From Marinobacter sp. F4206 (GTDB lineage: Bacteria > Pseudomonadota > Gammaproteobacteria > Pseudomonadales > Oleiphilaceae): DNA of 64,000 bases. Of the stretch, positions 29,840 to 38,456 are shown piece after piece (position 1 is the stretch's first letter; the number at the start of each line of letters is the position of its first letter). The position numbers were made by a program, and so were the translations under genes. The notes below the pieces were generated by a model that ran no database searches, was not told the origin of the DNA, and saw only the letters and a list, made by a program, of their open reading frames with translations. The stretch is taken from contig NZ_JAHXKI010000004.1 of NCBI RefSeq assembly GCF_019392195.1, forward strand, positions 1 through 64,000, written 5' to 3'.

Positions 29840-30622
29840 GTGGTCATGTCACTCCAAGACGAGAAAATGAGCTCATCGAACCGAACGTTTATAGCTGTCT
29901 GTAAAATATTCTACAGGCCGGTTTTTCGTCGATCCGCCCGTCAGGTTCTGAAGGGGCGACTCCTTGATCTCGAAGAGCCGCAAAAGGGAAGGTGGCTTGA
30001 ATCTGACATTAAGGAGTATCTCAAGCAAACATGGGCTCGGTCTGACTCGTTGATGCCCATTGCAGAGCTCGACAATTTGCCAACCTACGGTAATCGTCAA
30101 ACTGTATTTCTGGCGGTAATCACGACCGCAGCCTTCCAAGAGATGATAGCGCGTGGAGTGCCTTTGGAGTACGCCAAGACACTGGTGGGCGATTTAGGCT
30201 GGAAAGTTTATAACTGGATGCTAACGGCCGTATCCCTTCCTTTTCGTGTCACTAGCCGCGACCCGGCAACACGCATCGAGAGGACACTCCGGGCGCTCAT
30301 GGTTTTTCCTTTCAGTGCGCCCGGTGCCCCGGGGTATGAAGTAAAAGCCTGGACCGAAGGACCTAATACCTATACGCACTGGTCCCACTGCCCACCGCAA
30401 ACCTTTGTTCGTCGTGTGATTGAATTGAATGGCGACCAAGGCGAGCTCGATGCTTTCTTTCAGTCCTGGTGTCTCTATGATTGGCCGGGTGCTGATGTCC
30501 TCGCCAGCGATGGTCGGCATGGGCATTACAGTCGTCCACATACTCTCTCCCGGGGCGATTCGGTTTGCGATATGTGCTGGCATGGTTGCGCGAAGACTGT
30601 TGAGGAGCGAAGGCACCGTTAA
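29840..30622 (+). CDS. L-2-amino-thiazoline-4-carboxylic acid hydrolase-like protein
   Basis: 260 residues (ATG 29846 or 29870 are alternative starts). The C-terminal block FFQSWCLYDWPGADVLASDG, RPHTLSRGD and VCDMCWHG holds the conserved Cys/Asp/Trp features of the ATC-hydrolase family (PF14196), whose founding members open 2-amino-thiazoline-4-carboxylate on the way to cysteine. Most family members have unknown substrates. The call is by resemblance to the C-terminal signature; the N-terminal 90 residues are basic and less conserved. Gamma-glutamylcyclotransferase follows 15 bases downstream. Confidence 0.65.
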   Translation: MVMSLQDEKMSSSNRTFIAVCKIFYRPVFRRSARQVLKGRLLDLEEPQKGRWLESDIKEYLKQTWARSDSLMPIAELDNLPTYGNRQTVFLAVITTAAFQEMIARGVPLEYAKTLVGDLGWKVYNWMLTAVSLPFRVTSRDPATRIERTLRALMVFPFSAPGAPGYEVKAWTEGPNTYTHWSHCPPQTFVRRVIELNGDQGELDAFFQSWCLYDWPGADVLASDGRHGHYSRPHTLSRGDSVCDMCWHGCAKTVEERRHR

Positions 30623-30637
30623 CTGATTGGAGACACG

Positions 30638-31132
30638 GTGAAGTATTTTGCTTACGGATCAAACATGTCCCTCCCAAGATTGAAAGAGAGGGTTCCCAGT
30701 GCTGAGCGAGTCGGTAGGTTCGTGCTTGTTGAGCACTCTCTCCGGTTTCATAAGTGGAGTAGAAAAGACGGATCTGCAAAATGCGACGCGCTGTTCACTG
30801 GAAATAGCGATGACTACGTCATTGGTGCACTGTTCGAAATATCGGCTTTCGAGAAAGGCCCGCTAGACAGGGCCGAGGGATTGGGCTTCGGCTATGAGGA
30901 AAAGCGGGTTAGGGTAACGGATGTGCAGGGGAATTGCCTCCAAGCTTTTACCTACTGTGCAACCGATACAGACCCATCCTTGCTGCCTTACTCCTGGTAT
31001 TTGCATCACGTTATACGCGGTGCGGAAGAAACAGGGGTTCCAGCCGACTATCTGGATGCCGTTTCAGCCACAGAAAGCCAGGAAGATCCCGACCGAGAAA
31101 GAGATGCGAGAGAGCGGGCAATATACCGTTAA
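30638..31132 (+). CDS. Gamma-glutamylcyclotransferase-family protein
   Basis: 164 residues. Begins with YFAYGSNMSLPRLKERVPS, the substrate-binding loop of the GGCT/AIG2 fold, and has the catalytic Glu region in LDRAEGLGFGYEEKRV (about residues 78-93). These enzymes cyclise gamma-glutamyl amino acids to 5-oxoproline. GATTGGAGACACG precedes the ATG. It lies 15 bases after the ATC-hydrolase-like gene, suggesting an operon, and its stop overlaps by 4 bases the stop of the convergent AstE-like gene. Confidence 0.87.
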   Translation: MKYFAYGSNMSLPRLKERVPSAERVGRFVLVEHSLRFHKWSRKDGSAKCDALFTGNSDDYVIGALFEISAFEKGPLDRAEGLGFGYEEKRVRVTDVQGNCLQAFTYCATDTDPSLLPYSWYLHHVIRGAEETGVPADYLDAVSATESQEDPDRERDARERAIYR

Positions 31133-32184
31133 AAAATAGGTTCGCCCGTTGCCTTGACCGCATAGAACAGGCAATCACTCTTCGCAATAACCGGGTTGGT
31201 GGTGATCATGAAGGCTTTGATGGCCTGGGCCGGGTAGATCTGCCCATCCCTGACTTGAAGAACCTGCTCCATGTTCTCGGTCCGGTTGTGGCTGATCGCT
31301 GTCAGTATGCCAAGGCCTTTTTCTCCAACCCATCCCAGCGGCTCATCAGGGGAAACAACCCCAAAATTGCGGTGTTCGATGTCCGGCGGAAACGTGAGGT
31401 CAGCCTGCCCGCTGGGCTCAAGGCGGTATTCAACGGTCGCTTCGGGCGCCAGCTCCACCCGAATCGGATTTCGCAGTACGGAGACGTTCCACTCCGCCTT
31501 TTCCAGCGACAATACGTCTGGTCTTGAGGCATACCGAACCAGCCCCTCGTACGCCAGTTGATGAGCGTGATCATCCTGGGCTCCACCACACTCGATGGTC
31601 ACCGTCGGTACCTCCTGTTCAGAATATTCCATCAGCGCACCCAGACGTAGGTCCGTCATTATGAGGCGATCGGTGTAGAGCGAGGTCAGCGCCTGGTGTG
31701 CGGCGTCATTGGTGATGCTCACAGCGAAGGCCGGGCCAGTGCCTGAGGTGTTGTGCATGTCCAGCAGGCATTCAGGTTGCGCCTTGCCAAGCTCTGCCAG
31801 CATGGCTTGTGCGATGGCACCTTCCTCTCCCTCGAAGGGTTCTTTGAAGCACCGGTTGAGGTCGCGTCCTTCTGGCAGCTGGCGAAATGAAAGCGCAGGT
31901 GGGATTTTTGCGGGATAGACGCCTCCGAGCAGAAACAGCATGTTGACCTCGGGCGTGTGCTGCTCCAGTAGCCACTGGTGAAGGGCGAACAGACCCGAAG
32001 GCTCATTGCCGTGAATAAGGGTTGCCATGGCCCGTGTACGGGAGCGATCGCGACCGGCAACATGAATAACCGTGGGCTTGTGCAGCCGGTCCAGCCACTC
32101 TAGCGGTGAACGCCCCAGCGTCCGGGGGGAAGGGTCATTCAGATAATCAAATACGTTCGATTTGCTCACGGTGACAGTGTCCAT
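31129..32184 (-). CDS. AstE/aspartoacylase-family zinc deacylase
   Basis: 351 residues, M14-related. Zinc-site and substrate motifs: LIHGNEPSGLFAL (about residues 56-68, His and Glu), GRDLNRCF (Arg-Asp-Leu-Asn-Arg) and DMHNTSGTGPAF (the second His). The family cleaves N-acyl amino acids such as N-succinylglutamate; the ast arginine pathway genes are absent, so the substrate is likely something else. It overlaps the upstream ligase gene by 19 bases, implying a coupled pair. Confidence 0.88.
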   Translation of the reverse strand: MDTVTVSKSNVFDYLNDPSPRTLGRSPLEWLDRLHKPTVIHVAGRDRSRTRAMATLIHGNEPSGLFALHQWLLEQHTPEVNMLFLLGGVYPAKIPPALSFRQLPEGRDLNRCFKEPFEGEEGAIAQAMLAELGKAQPECLLDMHNTSGTGPAFAVSITNDAAHQALTSLYTDRLIMTDLRLGALMEYSEQEVPTVTIECGGAQDDHAHQLAYEGLVRYASRPDVLSLEKAEWNVSVLRNPIRVELAPEATVEYRLEPSGQADLTFPPDIEHRNFGVVSPDEPLGWVGEKGLGILTAISHNRTENMEQVLQVRDGQIYPAQAIKAFMITTNPVIAKSDCLFYAVKATGEPIF

Positions 32185-33650
32185 TCATGCACCGGCATGT
32201 TTTTCTTCTGGTTGGCCATGTAAAGAGACAGCATACTCCGGAACGCCTCGTCGGGGCTCAGGGACCTCAGAAAAGACTCGGTGATGTGTCGCTGCCACCG
32301 GGCGCCCGACACGTTGTTTTCAATGCGGCCTTCGATGATTCCCAGCAGGCGTTGAATTTCCGTCTCGTCCACGGCTGTTTTTTTCAATGCTTCCCGGGCG
32401 CGCGGCAGTAGCTCACGGGCCACGGTCAAGAGGGGCATATCCTGCAACTGAACCTGATCCTTGTGCGGCCAGATGATCTCTGCGTCGATGCCATATTTGG
32501 CTGCGCGGTAGAAATTGTGTTCGGTGTAATGGAAGGGGAGTATCGACGTCAGGTGGCGGATGTCATCAAGCACGGCGAGCGCAGCCCCGATCACGAACAG
32601 TCCGTTCGCACACATATCAACGGCAGTCGGCCCTGCCGGCATCGAGCGAATCTCGATGCGCAGATGACCGCCGTCTGCGTGATCAAAGATGGCCCGGTTC
32701 CAGGGCCATGTGGTGCCCTGGTGCAGTCGCATCTCGGCCAGTTTCGGCACCTCCCCACGGTCAATCACGGCCATGGGGTCTTCCTCCGACATCAGTGGAA
32801 TGATGGGGGGATACAGTGATGCGGAGGCCGCAAACAGTTCCCAGGCGCTGCGTACCCAGCCATTCCCGTAATAGACCCTAGGAGGATGGCGCCAGGTTTT
32901 ATAGTTAGGGGATCGGCTGTCGATGGATTGCTTGAACAGGGCAATGCGGGTTTCATCCCAGAGGTGGTGGCCAAACAGGCTGGGCGAATTGCTGGCCAGA
33001 GCCAGGACAATCGGCGTGACCAGTTGGACCGCATTGAAATAATCAGCAAAACGATGGGCAGGGACGCGCCAGTGCAGCTGGAACGAAGTGTTGGCGCCCT
33101 CCATGGTGACATCGTCGGCCTCCAGATCTATGACATCATTGCCACCGATGTGGATGCTGAATGGCTCACCTCGTTGTTCAAGCAGTGCTTTGGACAGGGC
33201 ATGGTAGCGGGGCTCGTCTGTCATCACCTCCGCGCTGATATCGGACTGGCGTAGTGTGGGCAGAATGCCGATCGGAACCAGTTCCCCATTCAGTGGTGCC
33301 GCGTGCTGGTTGATTTTTCTGATGGCAGCGAGCAGCTCCTGCTCTGTTCTGGCAAACGGGGCTCCCTTGAAAGCCTGGGGGCTGAGGTTGTATTCCAGGT
33401 TGAAGCGGTTGAGCTCAACGGTCAGTTGGGGGTCCTGAACCCTGGCGGCGATCTCCGTGTTGATGGGTTGAACGCACAGGTCCGGATTTACGATGTAGAA
33501 CTCGACCTCGGCACCAATGGAACTCTGGCCCTCGCCAAAGCCGGGCCGGTTCAGAAGACGAGTGAGCGCTTTAAGGTCCGTCCGGACCTTGGCAGCAAAA
33601 CGCTCAAACTCATCCGCCGAGAATTCCGTTTTATTGATCGACAGTCCCAC
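32166..33650 (-). CDS. Glutamate-cysteine ligase family (GCS2-type) protein
   Basis: 494 residues. GAEVEFYIVNPD (about residues 46-57), VELNRFNLEYNLSP, EGANTSFQLHWRV and HLRIEIRSMPAGPT are the ATP, metal and substrate blocks of the GCS2 carboxylate-amine ligase fold. These enzymes form gamma-glutamyl or similar amide bonds; this one is not a classical GshA and the acceptor is unknown. GTG start at 33650. Coupled to the AstE-like deacylase and divergent from an M14 peptidase, a grouping that suggests making and breaking of an amide-linked small peptide. Confidence 0.85.
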   Translation of the reverse strand: MGLSINKTEFSADEFERFAAKVRTDLKALTRLLNRPGFGEGQSSIGAEVEFYIVNPDLCVQPINTEIAARVQDPQLTVELNRFNLEYNLSPQAFKGAPFARTEQELLAAIRKINQHAAPLNGELVPIGILPTLRQSDISAEVMTDEPRYHALSKALLEQRGEPFSIHIGGNDVIDLEADDVTMEGANTSFQLHWRVPAHRFADYFNAVQLVTPIVLALASNSPSLFGHHLWDETRIALFKQSIDSRSPNYKTWRHPPRVYYGNGWVRSAWELFAASASLYPPIIPLMSEEDPMAVIDRGEVPKLAEMRLHQGTTWPWNRAIFDHADGGHLRIEIRSMPAGPTAVDMCANGLFVIGAALAVLDDIRHLTSILPFHYTEHNFYRAAKYGIDAEIIWPHKDQVQLQDMPLLTVARELLPRAREALKKTAVDETEIQRLLGIIEGRIENNVSGARWQRHITESFLRSLSPDEAFRSMLSLYMANQKKNMPVHEWTLSP

Positions 33651-33819
33651 GGTAACGTCGTCTCTAACGCCAACTTACTTTGATAGTAGTGGAAGATGCG
33701 CCCGGCACCAGCCCAAGAATACTTAACTGTGGCGGTATGGAGCCTGTTCAAAGAGGAAAGCGCCGCATTGATGCTAGAATGCCCGTCTGCATCCGCCATC
33801 ACTGGAGAAAATAATCGAT

Positions 33820-34743
33820 ATGAACACGGCTTCCGCCCCTTATCCAATCGGTACGCCCGGCACGCCCTGGGGCGATGTTGAACGTGCCGAGTGGTTGTCA
33901 CGACAGACCCGTCAACGCAGCTACGAGTCCGAGGTGTTGAGCGTGATTGAGCGCCTGCGCTCGGGCTTTGATGTGGAAGAGTATGGTCGTCTGAACTATG
34001 GCACCGACACCTATCCGCTGATGGCGATCCGCAGCCCTGACTGGCGGGACGATCTGCCTGTCGTGCTGATAACGGGCGGGGTACACGGTTATGAAACCAG
34101 CGGTGTACACGGCGCGCTGCAGTTCGTCGATCAGCATGCGGCGGATTACGCGGGCCGCGTCAACCTGCTGGTCGCACCCTGTGTCAGCCCCTGGGCGTAC
34201 GAGCGCATCCATCGCTGGAACGCGAACGCGGTTGACCCGAACCGCTCATTCTGCGCTGACAGTCCGGCTGAGGAGTCGGCGGCACTCATGCGACTGGTGG
34301 CGCCCGTCGCCGATCGTGCACTGCTGCATATCGACCTGCACGAGACCACCGATACCGACGAAACCGAGTTTCGCCCTGCGCTGGCCGCCCGTGACGGCAA
34401 GTCGTTCGAGCCCGGCGAGATTCCCGACGGTTTCTATCTGGTTGATGACAGCGAGAGCCCACAGCCTGAATTCCAGCAGGCGTTGATCGAGGCGGTGGAG
34501 CAGGTCACTCATATCGCTCCGGCTGATGACAACGGCGAGATCTTCGGCTCACCGGTGGTCGCTCGGGGTGTTATCCAGTACCCGCTCACACACCTGGGCC
34601 TGTGCGCCAGTATCACCAGAGCCCCCTACAGGACGACCACCGAGGTCTATCCCGACAGCCCTCGTGCGACCCCCGAGCAGTGCAATGCCGCTCAGGCTAT
34701 CGCAGTGTGCGCGGCGATCGACTATGCGCTGGCACGCCAGTAG
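33820..34743 (+). CDS. M14-family metallocarboxypeptidase
   Basis: 307 residues. Zinc site HGYETSGVHG (about residues 90-99, H-x-x-E) and LLHIDLHETTDTDE (second His, about 174); DPNRSF is the substrate-binding Asn-Arg pair. No signal peptide, so it acts in the cytoplasm, like peptidases that trim gamma-glutamyl or small peptides. It is divergent from the GCS2 ligase gene, 170 bases away. Confidence 0.86.
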   Translation: MNTASAPYPIGTPGTPWGDVERAEWLSRQTRQRSYESEVLSVIERLRSGFDVEEYGRLNYGTDTYPLMAIRSPDWRDDLPVVLITGGVHGYETSGVHGALQFVDQHAADYAGRVNLLVAPCVSPWAYERIHRWNANAVDPNRSFCADSPAEESAALMRLVAPVADRALLHIDLHETTDTDETEFRPALAARDGKSFEPGEIPDGFYLVDDSESPQPEFQQALIEAVEQVTHIAPADDNGEIFGSPVVARGVIQYPLTHLGLCASITRAPYRTTTEVYPDSPRATPEQCNAAQAIAVCAAIDYALARQ

Positions 34744-35117: not shown

Positions 35118-36539
35118 TCACTCCGTGATTGGCTGTGAAAGGATCCACAGGCTCAGCACAGTCAGTCCGACCATGCCAATCGTCATCGGGACCTGCGTGA
35201 GCGCGGCGCGCCGCGCGTCTTTGAAGAGCTGAAGTGCGCGCCGGTGTGCGACCAGAACGGAAAGCGCGTGCCCCGCGATCAGTGCCGTGAAGGCTACCCA
35301 CCAGATGTGTCTGGTTCCGATGACGCTGATGTCGATGGACCAGTTCCGCGTACCGAAGAGGTCCCAGCCCAGGCCGAACGGATCCGACGCGGCGGGGAAG
35401 ATTAGCTGGCCGGCGATCAGCAGGTATGAGACATAGTGCGAGAGATGGTAGGCGACTGCGATGGGCAGGAGCGTACCGACGAAGGCTCGCGCGAGCTGAC
35501 CGATCGTGAGTGTGCCGCCGGCCAGCGCCCGCATCAGCACGATCAAAAGCCAGTAGGCGCTGTAGAAGGCGGCAATGGTCGCCAGGAGGCCAATGGTGCG
35601 AATGACCTGAATCAAATCTGCGCCCTGACCGCGCAGCCACAGCAGCGGCGCTCGCAGGAACGGCGAGTTGCTCACGAAATCCAACACGCCGGCCCAGACG
35701 GGGGTCTCGGACAGGCCATCGAAGAGCACAATCCCGATGAGCCCCGTGACCAGCGCCACTTCGCCGCCAACCGGCGCTGACCTGCTGAGCAGGCCCTCGC
35801 CCGGTGGACGCACGCGCACTGCAGTGCCGCTGGCCACCGACAGCGGCGCGACCCGGCCAAGCACCGCGAAAATGCGGCTCAGGGGGTCTGCGACACGGAA
35901 CCACTGTTGCCCGAAGGCGAGCCCGCCGAGAAGCGCGACCACGAGATAGGTCATCACGAGCAGGCCCACCGTGTGCGGATCTTCCGACCAGTCCGATACC
36001 AGCTCAATCCAGGCGATCGCCAGCAGCCCTGCTGGCGCCATCAAGCCGGCGGCCCACGGAAGATTGGCCGAACTGCTCTGCCACGGCCGACCGACCGCCC
36101 ATGTCGAGAATGCCGCCAGTCTTCGAAAAGGGTCGATCTGCGGCCAGAGACAGACCACCAGGGCTGAGAACAGCACGAATCCTACCCACCAGATCACCCA
36201 GACCCAGACAGTCGCGAAATTGCGCATGGCCTCCTGCGGTCCGAAGAACGCTGCACCGAGCAGGACGGCGAGCACCAGCAGGCCGACAATGCCCAGCACC
36301 GTGGAAAGCGCGCGGCCAGCTTTGGCGGGGATCGGAATGTCCAGATGCATTGGGCGTGACAGCCCGGTACGGAGAAAGAGTAGTGCGCCGAGAAACGACG
36401 CCGCCACTGCCATCCCCGCTGCGGCAAGATACAGGCTGAGTGGCAGCGGCAGATCGTAACGGGCGCCAAACGCATGAGCGTTGACCTGCGACGCTGCCAG
36501 AACCGCCGTCGTAGCCACCGCCACCTGCCAGCGTGTCAC
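35118..36539 (-). CDS. Polytopic membrane protein of a three-gene operon
   Basis: 473 residues with about 11-12 hydrophobic segments; the first (VAVATTAVLAASQVNAHAFG) may be a signal-like helix. No transporter family signature is recognised, and few charged residues lie inside the helices apart from His/Trp-rich positions (YHLSHYVSYLLIAGQ, about 360-375). It starts with GTG that overlaps the stop of the cupredoxin-like gene by 4 bases (GTGA), so the two are translationally coupled. A role with the copper-type partner upstream is possible, for example electron transfer or metal handling, but is inference. Confidence 0.75.
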   Translation of the reverse strand: MTRWQVAVATTAVLAASQVNAHAFGARYDLPLPLSLYLAAAGMAVAASFLGALLFLRTGLSRPMHLDIPIPAKAGRALSTVLGIVGLLVLAVLLGAAFFGPQEAMRNFATVWVWVIWWVGFVLFSALVVCLWPQIDPFRRLAAFSTWAVGRPWQSSSANLPWAAGLMAPAGLLAIAWIELVSDWSEDPHTVGLLVMTYLVVALLGGLAFGQQWFRVADPLSRIFAVLGRVAPLSVASGTAVRVRPPGEGLLSRSAPVGGEVALVTGLIGIVLFDGLSETPVWAGVLDFVSNSPFLRAPLLWLRGQGADLIQVIRTIGLLATIAAFYSAYWLLIVLMRALAGGTLTIGQLARAFVGTLLPIAVAYHLSHYVSYLLIAGQLIFPAASDPFGLGWDLFGTRNWSIDISVIGTRHIWWVAFTALIAGHALSVLVAHRRALQLFKDARRAALTQVPMTIGMVGLTVLSLWILSQPITE

Positions 36540-37022: not shown

Positions 37023-38207
37023 CTAGTGTCCGGCCAGGTGGTTCCACTCCGGCAATAGCGTGAGCGAGTTCGGATTAAACCCGGCATTCTTGAGGGTGTC
37101 CATGGAGGCGACTACCTCGCCGCGCTCAAGATCCACCACCGAGACCGAGCCGTCACTCATATCCGGCAGGTTGATGAACGAGTTCTGGACGAATCCGTAC
37201 CGGAAGTCAGGCGTGAATCCGACGTGGTGTGCACCGTCGGCCGTGGCGACCTGCTTCAGCAACTTCGGTTTGGTCGGGCCTTCCGAGATGTCGAAGATAT
37301 GCAGGTGACCCGGTTTCATGGCCGTCGTCACGTACATACGATCAGGGTTCTTGTCGTCGTTGAAGTAGATCTCAAGCGGCACAGTGGCACCATGCTCTGC
37401 GAAGTTGAAGATCGTCTCCCGACCGAACTCCTGCGAGTCCGTGTCCCAGACCAGCGCCTCGAGCGTATGACCGAACATGTTGGTCACGATCGCTGTCGCC
37501 GGCTCGGCACCTGGCACGAAGAACACCTCGACGGGCGCGACCTTGGACGGCGACTCGGCATCCGTCATCTTGATTTTGCCAAGCGGCTTGAGGTCAGAGG
37601 CACGCACCACCGAGACGAACTCGTCCGGGCTGGTCAGATCCGGCGTGATGGTCGAGGTGACCAGTATGCGATCGATCGCAGTATTGACGGCTAGGCCGTG
37701 CGGGTAGGTACCCGGCAGATCAATCTCGCCCACCACTTCGTCGCTCGCAACGTCACCGACGATCACCTTGCCAGAGCCCATGCAGGTCAGATACCAGCGC
37801 TCGTTCGCTTCGTCCAGAATCACGTCCTCGGCCACGTTGCATGGCGGCGTTTCAATCGTGGAGAGGCGATAGGGATTCTTCGTGAGATCAAGAACCTGAA
37901 GCGCAGGCTGTTGCAGACCGGTGATGTAGGCCTTGCTCATCGTTCGGTCGTAGAAGATGTGGTGTGCGACTGTTGCCGGGTCGATTGGAATATCCGATAC
38001 GATTTTTCCGAAATTCGGACTCTCCGGATCGACATCGACGATCGCCAGGCCCTCGCGTCGAGCTGTTTCACCAGATAACTTGAGGCTCTTGAGTTGGTCG
38101 GCGGGCTTACTCTCGTAATTCATGACTGCCAGGATTTCGGCCGTCACTGGGGCGACTGGGACGATTGCTGCCAAGGCAGCAATCGTCCAGGGGATTGCGG
38201 TTTTCAT
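37023..38207 (-). CDS. Exported beta-propeller protein
   Basis: 394 residues. Signal peptide at residues 1-23 (MKTAIPWTIAALAAIVPVA...A). The rest is a series of about six repeats of the YncE/PQQ-type WD-like propeller: segments such as YITGLQQPALQVLDLTKNPY, GKVIVGDVASDEVVGEIDL and GSVSVVDLERGEVVASMDTL each end in a strand with a small residue pair. Probably periplasmic; propellers of this kind often bind ligands or metals. ATG 38207 follows AGGAGGG. First gene of the operon that continues with the cupredoxin-like protein (56 bases downstream). Confidence 0.83.
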   Translation of the reverse strand: MKTAIPWTIAALAAIVPVAPVTAEILAVMNYESKPADQLKSLKLSGETARREGLAIVDVDPESPNFGKIVSDIPIDPATVAHHIFYDRTMSKAYITGLQQPALQVLDLTKNPYRLSTIETPPCNVAEDVILDEANERWYLTCMGSGKVIVGDVASDEVVGEIDLPGTYPHGLAVNTAIDRILVTSTITPDLTSPDEFVSVVRASDLKPLGKIKMTDAESPSKVAPVEVFFVPGAEPATAIVTNMFGHTLEALVWDTDSQEFGRETIFNFAEHGATVPLEIYFNDDKNPDRMYVTTAMKPGHLHIFDISEGPTKPKLLKQVATADGAHHVGFTPDFRYGFVQNSFINLPDMSDGSVSVVDLERGEVVASMDTLKNAGFNPNSLTLLPEWNHLAGH

Positions 38208-38456
38208 GATATGCCCTCCTGAATGGGGCACGACTAACCTGAGACAACCCCAGGCAGTCTCATAGAAGTATATAGCTCTCGCTGGCCGGGAAAGCAAAGC
38301 TCCCCACCGTCCTCGGCAACCAAGGAAAACCGGCAATCCGGAACAGATTGATTTTATACACGGAGAGTAGCGTGGGAACCTGGCGGGAAGGGTCGGGTAA
38401 CGATCCCTCATTTCCTCACTATACTGACATTTGACGAATGTAGAGGAGGACGTGAA

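Follow-up and report, generated by a model that had tools for sequence, protein, structure and literature searches.

Carboxylate-amine ligases of the YbdK type are common, and we know of no physiological substrate for them. Among the systems that have been described, the ligase AtdA1, a gamma-glutamylanilide synthase, is encoded with the hydrolase AtdA2, which is reported to prevent build-up of the product (PMC11335346), and CphZ splits beta-Asp-Arg, an isopeptide (PMC12661447). Here we analyse a stretch of 64,000 nucleotides from Marinobacter sp. F4206 (contig NZ_JAHXKI010000004.1; hereafter the window), in which two adjacent genes, D and C, encode a predicted ligase of the GCS2 fold and a predicted zinc hydrolase of the AstE/aspartoacylase fold (Table 1). 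D and C form a nearly inseparable pair whose coupling is well supported, and this pair is the real unit of the locus. Each of the two is an enzyme of a known kind; no description of the pair was found in the open-access literature, a search outside which subscription journals mostly lay. The amidoligase neighbourhood predictions of Iyer et al. 2009, cited in PMC7947786, are said to link GCS2-like ligases with peptidases and are the likeliest place for an earlier mention of the pair. A paper on a chytrid lists, among transferred genes, one for a carboxylate-amine ligase and one for a succinylglutamate desuccinylase (PMC5005798); they are not said to be related to D and C, and we do not use them as support.

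The locus shares some features with each of the two described hydrolase systems. As with AtdA1 and AtdA2, a ligase is encoded together with a hydrolase that could undo its product; however, in that system the ligase is of the class I glutamine-synthetase-like type and the hydrolase GAT-like, as opposed to the GCS2 and AstE folds seen here, and the two hydrolases are unrelated. CphZ shares the AstE-family fold with C and sets a precedent for an isopeptide substrate, whereas the partner of C is a GCS2-fold ligase and no cyanophycin genes recur beside C (these families were not searched for by name).

Co-occurrence of the ligase and hydrolase genes

The pairing was followed through samples drawn from the order, from the phylum and from a set of named loci, which partly overlap and are not independent of one another. 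In the order sample of 293 genomes, where the C family was defined by profile matches over 60 bits, D was present in 56 genomes and C in 55; both genes were found in 54, D only in two, C only in one (G240) and neither in 236 (Fisher p 2e-55, the relatedness of the genomes being ignored). One of the two genomes counted as D only has an intact D standing alone (G107), and the other holds pieces of both genes (G124). The 398 genomes of the phylum sample gave 18 with both, one with D only (G750), two with C only (G668, G425) and 377 with neither. Wherever both genes were present their coordinates placed them side by side (54 of 54 genomes in the order, 18 of 18 in the phylum), and the three genomes with two D genes hold two C genes, each C beside its own D. 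Of 80 named loci, 77 have C immediately after D in the direction of transcription, at a spacing of -15 to +108 as measured between tblastn ends; the three misses comprise one contig that ends about 0.2 kb past D (L093) and two loci with other genes in that position (L087, L103). This adjacency is overwhelmingly beyond chance, and the coupling of a GCS2 ligase to a zinc deacylase that had been suggested from the sequence alone is thereby upheld, including in one clade where a different GCS2-fold ligase has taken the place of D.

Loss of the genes also appears to be shared. Both G124 and G016 retain pieces of D and of C, so that the remnants of the two genes decay together. Within Marinobacter the distribution is patchy, with a D match in 60 of 124 genomes, three of them as fragments only (G355, G366, G375). 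Two of these fragments (G355:C1:1308942-1309433 and G366:C1:3124386-3124877) look like signs of pair loss in a variable region. The evolutionary distances of D and C are correlated in the main clade (mirror-tree r 0.84, with none of 1000 permutations as high), which speaks for joint inheritance and for nothing beyond it.

The surroundings of the pair were surveyed in 81 neighbourhoods that extend at most 8 kb to either side, some of them cut by contig ends and all without calling of frames below 80 residues. After D and C themselves, the most frequent family was that of gene B, whose 12 loci all belong to the Marinobacter group. In the remaining genomes, those outside Marinobacter, no third family was found in more than nine of 39 neighbourhoods, and the family that reached this number came from a single lineage group.

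Folds and families of D and C

The fold of the predicted model, the Pfam score and the conserved residues all place D in the GCS2-fold carboxylate-amine ligase superfamily. Its score against Pfam GCS2 (23.5 bits, cut-off 21, E 4e-5) agrees with the label first given to it from the sequence. At E<=1, GCS2 is matched by all 28 of its relatives (best 2.5e-10) and the eukaryotic-type GCS family PF03074 by 23 of them (best 2.5e-6); against the latter family the D of the window itself reaches 14.3 bits, below the cut-off of 25. By matching both profiles, the D family may help to join the two. A search of the Marinobacter genome with Pfam GCS2 returned no match and missed D itself, and is therefore uninformative on further GCS2 genes.

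Neither D nor C has a significant match by sequence among solved structures, and the folds of both are thus taken from predicted models. The AlphaFold2 model of D (predicted local distance difference test, pLDDT, 92.5) can be superposed on YbdK of Salmonella (1tt4; VIA Z 35.7 over 344 residues, root-mean-square deviation 2.4) and of E. coli (1r8g; VIA Z 35.0, 348 residues, 2.5), on the plant glutamate-cysteine ligase 2gwc (VIA Z 31.0) and on the yeast enzyme 3ig5 (VIA Z 27.9 over 472 residues). The likeness to the YbdK family (NF010039, TIGR02050) spans some 345 residues (Z 35 to 36), whereas identity is about 14%, D is about 120 residues longer, and its score of 16.7 bits against the TIGR02050 cut-off of 176.4 excludes it from the YbdK family proper (TIGR02050, NF010040). 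With glutamate-cysteine ligases, both plant GCS2 and eukaryotic GCS, D shares the fold and weak matches to the two Pfam families, but it is accompanied by a hydrolase and its genome contains a separate GshA (PF04262, 530 bits). Glutathione is therefore not the obvious product of D, and its role as the cell's glutathione enzyme was rejected as a sole reading.

Conservation is seen in both proteins at positions whose catalytic roles we take over from the respective families, an assumption that the alignments partly back; many rows of these alignments (129 for D, 119 for C) are close relatives. Residues E48, E50, E79, E86, Q191, E333 and R335 of D are identical in 127 of 129 rows, the other two being gaps, and R235 is kept in 126 of 129, with three gaps. 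The GxExE and ELxRxxxE stretches of D were aligned with those of a YbdK-type protein in a profile alignment that is weak as a whole (156 columns, probability 33%).

C is, by its profile matches and its model, a member of the AstE/AspA catalytic-domain superfamily that has kept the zinc ligands HxxE...H and the catalytic glutamate. It scores 30.5 bits against AstE_AspA_cat (cut-off 25, E 3.2e-7), a family matched by all 28 of its relatives, and the label of AstE-like deacylase proposed earlier is retained. The AlphaFold model (pLDDT 89.8) resembles succinylglutamate desuccinylases (VIA Z 21.3 for 2g9d, and 21.2), EutE/DoeB (19.3), CphZ (8eip, 19.2) and aspartoacylase (4mri, 17.9). Residues H58, E61, D108, N110, R111, H144 and E198 are identical in all 119 rows, and the motifs line up with HGNE and DLHNT in 2gu2 and with HGDE, DINRCF and DMHT in 3cdx. 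C thus shares with AstE, DoeB/EutE and aspartoacylase both the fold and the HxxE, DxNR and DxHNT motifs in the same order; it differs from them in its low identity (12 to 17%) and in a C-terminal DC..Y motif that is invariant in C, and from AstE and DoeB/EutE also in that the neighbourhood survey found no arginine- or ectoine-catabolic genes recurring beside it. Two more specific assignments were rejected, namely aspartoacylase proper (NF002601, 19.8 bits against a cut-off of 180) and the succinylglutamate desuccinylase of arginine catabolism, for which the ast operon context was absent, no third family being found beside C in more than nine of the 39 loci outside Marinobacter.

The structural comparisons also bear on the idea that D adds glutamate or a similar group to a protein or peptide and that C removes it, as in the ligation and removal of Pup or in tubulin glutamylation. 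The D model does resemble Dop (Z 19.5) and PafA (Z 18.3), and there is a likeness between the catalytic domain of C and M14 carboxypeptidases (Z 14 to 17). However, YbdK and the glutamate-cysteine ligases are much nearer to D (Z 28 to 36), and the recurrent neighbours of the pair include no gene for a small tag, with the reservation that frames below 80 residues were not called. We consider modification of a macromolecule very improbable.

Exchange of the ligase and a possible make-and-break function

The single genome of the order sample with C and no D (G240) carries a YbdK-type ligase gene head to head with C. The encoded ligase scores 513.5 bits against the carboxylate-amine ligase family NF010039 (cut-off 371) and 310.3 against TIGR02050 (cut-off 176.4). 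In the family to which G240 belongs C occurs in 69 of 150 genomes, and 30 of its C loci, to which the count of the exchange is confined with the loci of the other 39 C-bearing genomes left aside, comprise 19 in which C lies beside a divergent YbdK-type gene, 10 in which it lies beside D and one with neither (L164). A few of the 19 YbdK-paired loci are damaged or cut (L152, L153, L166, L167). When 82 C proteins are placed in a midpoint-rooted tree, those paired with YbdK-type ligases, together with L164, form one clade (support 100/100) among D-paired lineages, the nodes around it having support of 98/91 and 95/72. Members of this clade (L136, L200-L208) share their surroundings, with neighbours that by eye resemble phosphofructokinase and membrane pyrophosphatase.

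In this one clade a protein of the YbdK family takes the place of D beside C. Since D and YbdK have the same fold at about 14% identity, the exchange kept a ligase of that fold; that one such ligase could stand in for another suggests that C depends on the reaction they catalyse. It is plausible that D makes an amide of the gamma-glutamyl type and that C hydrolyses it, the two forming a self-contained make-and-break pair, a reading whose substrate and direction we infer and which, in our judgement, has about an even chance of being correct. In this model D, using adenosine triphosphate (ATP), would activate a carboxylate and join it to the amine of a small molecule X; the gamma-carboxyl of glutamate is the most likely donor. 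C, acting as a zinc hydrolase, would then cut the resulting amide, or another formed directly from it, and this cleavage may serve to limit or recycle the product of D.

Amides of amino acids are the substrates of the enzymes nearest to C in fold, namely succinylglutamate desuccinylase, EutE/DoeB, aspartoacylase and CphZ. AstE-type enzymes deacylate an amino acid, and the gamma-glutamyl group resembles the succinyl group; together with the cleavage of an isopeptide by CphZ, this makes a gamma-glutamyl amide a credible substrate. That C would act on the product of D itself is suggested by the obligate pairing of the genes and by the precedent of AtdA2. In Marinobacter, B would be a likely second route for breaking the same kind of product: it aligns with human GGCT, and a gamma-glutamyl product would fit such an enzyme.

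The pairing and the exchange of the ligase fit equally well with sequential biosynthesis. In such a series C would first deacylate an N-acylated precursor and D would couple the amine so released to a carboxylate, so that each enzyme acts on a different bond. EutE/DoeB and succinylglutamate desuccinylase, relatives of C by fold, do free amino acids from N-acyl forms. No recurrent third gene that could synthesise the acyl precursor stands beside the pair, however, while the gene order places D first and D occurs alone in Actinobacteria, and we regard this route as rather unlikely. A further possibility is that D adds gamma-glutamate to an amine, that other enzymes alter the amine and that C finally removes the glutamyl group. 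Gamma-glutamylation does initiate the degradation of amines through other enzymes of the glutamine-synthetase fold, as has been reported (PMC11335346), and D has a fold of the same superfamily. Against such bracketed catabolism, the 81 neighbourhoods show no recurrent oxidase, dehydrogenase or transporter family, and we think it distinctly unlikely.

Several observations weigh against the proposal that D makes an amide and C breaks it. A ligase and a hydrolase acting on the same bond would run a futile cycle unless regulated, and the neighbourhood survey revealed no conserved regulator beside the pair. The glutamate-binding residues of D are assigned provisionally, from known structures. The 19 pairings with YbdK-type genes probably reflect one replacement of D in one clade and not 19 events. 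D stands without C in G107, where it is intact, and in L087 and L103, and G750 encodes a D-type ligase of 653 residues with C-terminal CBS-like domains and no C nearby (L126:7153-9111), perhaps a nucleotide-regulated variant. In Actinobacteria, D also occurs without C in the plasmid or megaplasmid copies of Streptomyces and Tsukamurella and, within 6 kb, in Nonomuraea. Conversely, G668, G425 and G827 carry C with no gene for a GCS2 ligase in the surrounding 1.5 kb. Finally, the association of B with D in Marinobacter takes no account of how closely the genomes are related. The actinobacterial relatives of D that stand alone (L142, L143, L144) have 32-40% identity, and the ligase may be older than its pairing with C.

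Should D and C indeed make and break a single molecule, they would amount to a simple system of two genes whose product can be tested for, and which many marine gammaproteobacteria and a number of further Pseudomonadota possess. That C follows a GCS2-fold ligase even after the ligase has been exchanged offers a direct genetic handle, as removal of the hydrolase would allow a search for an accumulating product. This product could possibly be a new small metabolite, as the sequence-only reading had proposed. More tentatively, and with somewhat more doubt than confidence, we suggest that D and C represent a widespread and unnamed write-and-erase system for an amide, of the gamma-glutamyl type or another, in Pseudomonadota, that C, through the exchange of D for a YbdK-type ligase, reveals the products of YbdK-type ligases to be amides needing clearance by an AstE-type enzyme, and that D bridges the two families of glutamate-cysteine ligases.

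Layout of the locus and neighbouring genes

All five reading frames that had been read from the sequence between 29840 and 34743 are present at those coordinates (Table 1). The strand order from A to E is + + - - +, with D and E divergent. Overlapping stops and starts had been claimed for the whole group; they exist between D and C, which are the only overlapping neighbours in the same direction (19 bp), and as a 4-bp overlap of the convergent ends of B and C, and nowhere else. The overlap of D and C is consistent with translational coupling of the two genes. Promoter and terminator scans gave no more matches than in shuffled sequences.

Table 1. Genes and gene overlap at the D-C locus, in window coordinates
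Feature	Coordinates	Strand	Description
Gene A	29840-30622	+	No family match; neighbour only
Gene B	30638-31132	+	Gamma-glutamylcyclotransferase-like (AIG2_2/GGACT); convergent with C; accompanies D-C as an accessory gene, in Marinobacter only
Gene C	31129-32184	-	351 residues; predicted divergent zinc amidohydrolase of the AstE/aspartoacylase fold; directly downstream of D
Gene D	32166-33650	-	494 residues; GTG start; predicted divergent carboxylate-amine ligase of the glutamine-synthetase/GCS fold
Gene E	33820-34743	+	Second AstE/AspA-superfamily protein; divergent from D; not a conserved partner
Overlap of D end and C start	32166-32184	-	19 bp; from gene coordinates

B can be assigned as gamma-glutamylcyclotransferase-like, as had been proposed, on the strength of its Pfam matches (AIG2_2 1e-14, GGACT 2e-6) and of an alignment with human GGCT (4.8e-7) in which YFAYGSN is matched to YFAYGSN and LDRAEG to LDEQEG (LDxxEG), so that the YGSN motif and the region of the catalytic glutamate are kept. 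For the association counts within the genus, partial or weaker matches to B and E were dropped beforehand. Close relatives of B (>=70%) occur in 24 of 124 Marinobacter genomes, all 24 of which have a D match, two as remnants (relatedness ignored); B lies within 3 kb of D in 13 of these and on another contig in five. Weaker relatives (<70%), counted apart, are accompanied by D in 14 of 20 genomes.

E had been labelled an M14 peptidase; its Peptidase_M14 score falls below the cut-off (19.3 against 21.6 bits), and it matches AstE_AspA_cat instead (6.3e-7). Its profile alignment with C is weak (85 columns, probability 17%). D is present in 41 of the 73 Marinobacter genomes that carry E and absent from the other 32 (Fisher p 0.046, again ignoring relatedness), and E lies within 40 kb of D in 16 of the 27 genomes that hold both on one contig. 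E is at most weakly associated with D, and a shared variable chromosomal region explains its proximity. For A, the name 'ATC hydrolase' finds no support, there being no Pfam match even at E 10, and a relative of A was found beside C in one other locus (L038) of 80.

The sequence-only reading had joined all five genes in one cluster and had held that genes failing to co-occur in other genomes would be neighbours by chance. A single five-gene operon is ruled out by the strands and by the co-occurrence counts. A five-gene pathway could draw on the way in which B tracks D in Marinobacter and on the proximity of E to D within the genus; yet the strands are mixed, A has no family, E often occurs without D, and neither B nor E was found near the pair in any of the 39 neighbourhoods outside Marinobacter (tblastn, E 1e-4). 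For A and E as conserved partners the pathway is already refuted, their proximity to the pair being unexplained by co-occurrence, and for the group as a whole we find it barely credible. The survey of co-occurrence thus speaks for D with C, for B inside Marinobacter only, and against A and E as conserved partners. Beside the cluster lie a frame of 473 residues without a Pfam match (35118-36539) and one of 462 residues whose only match, to SBP56, is below threshold (37023-38411).

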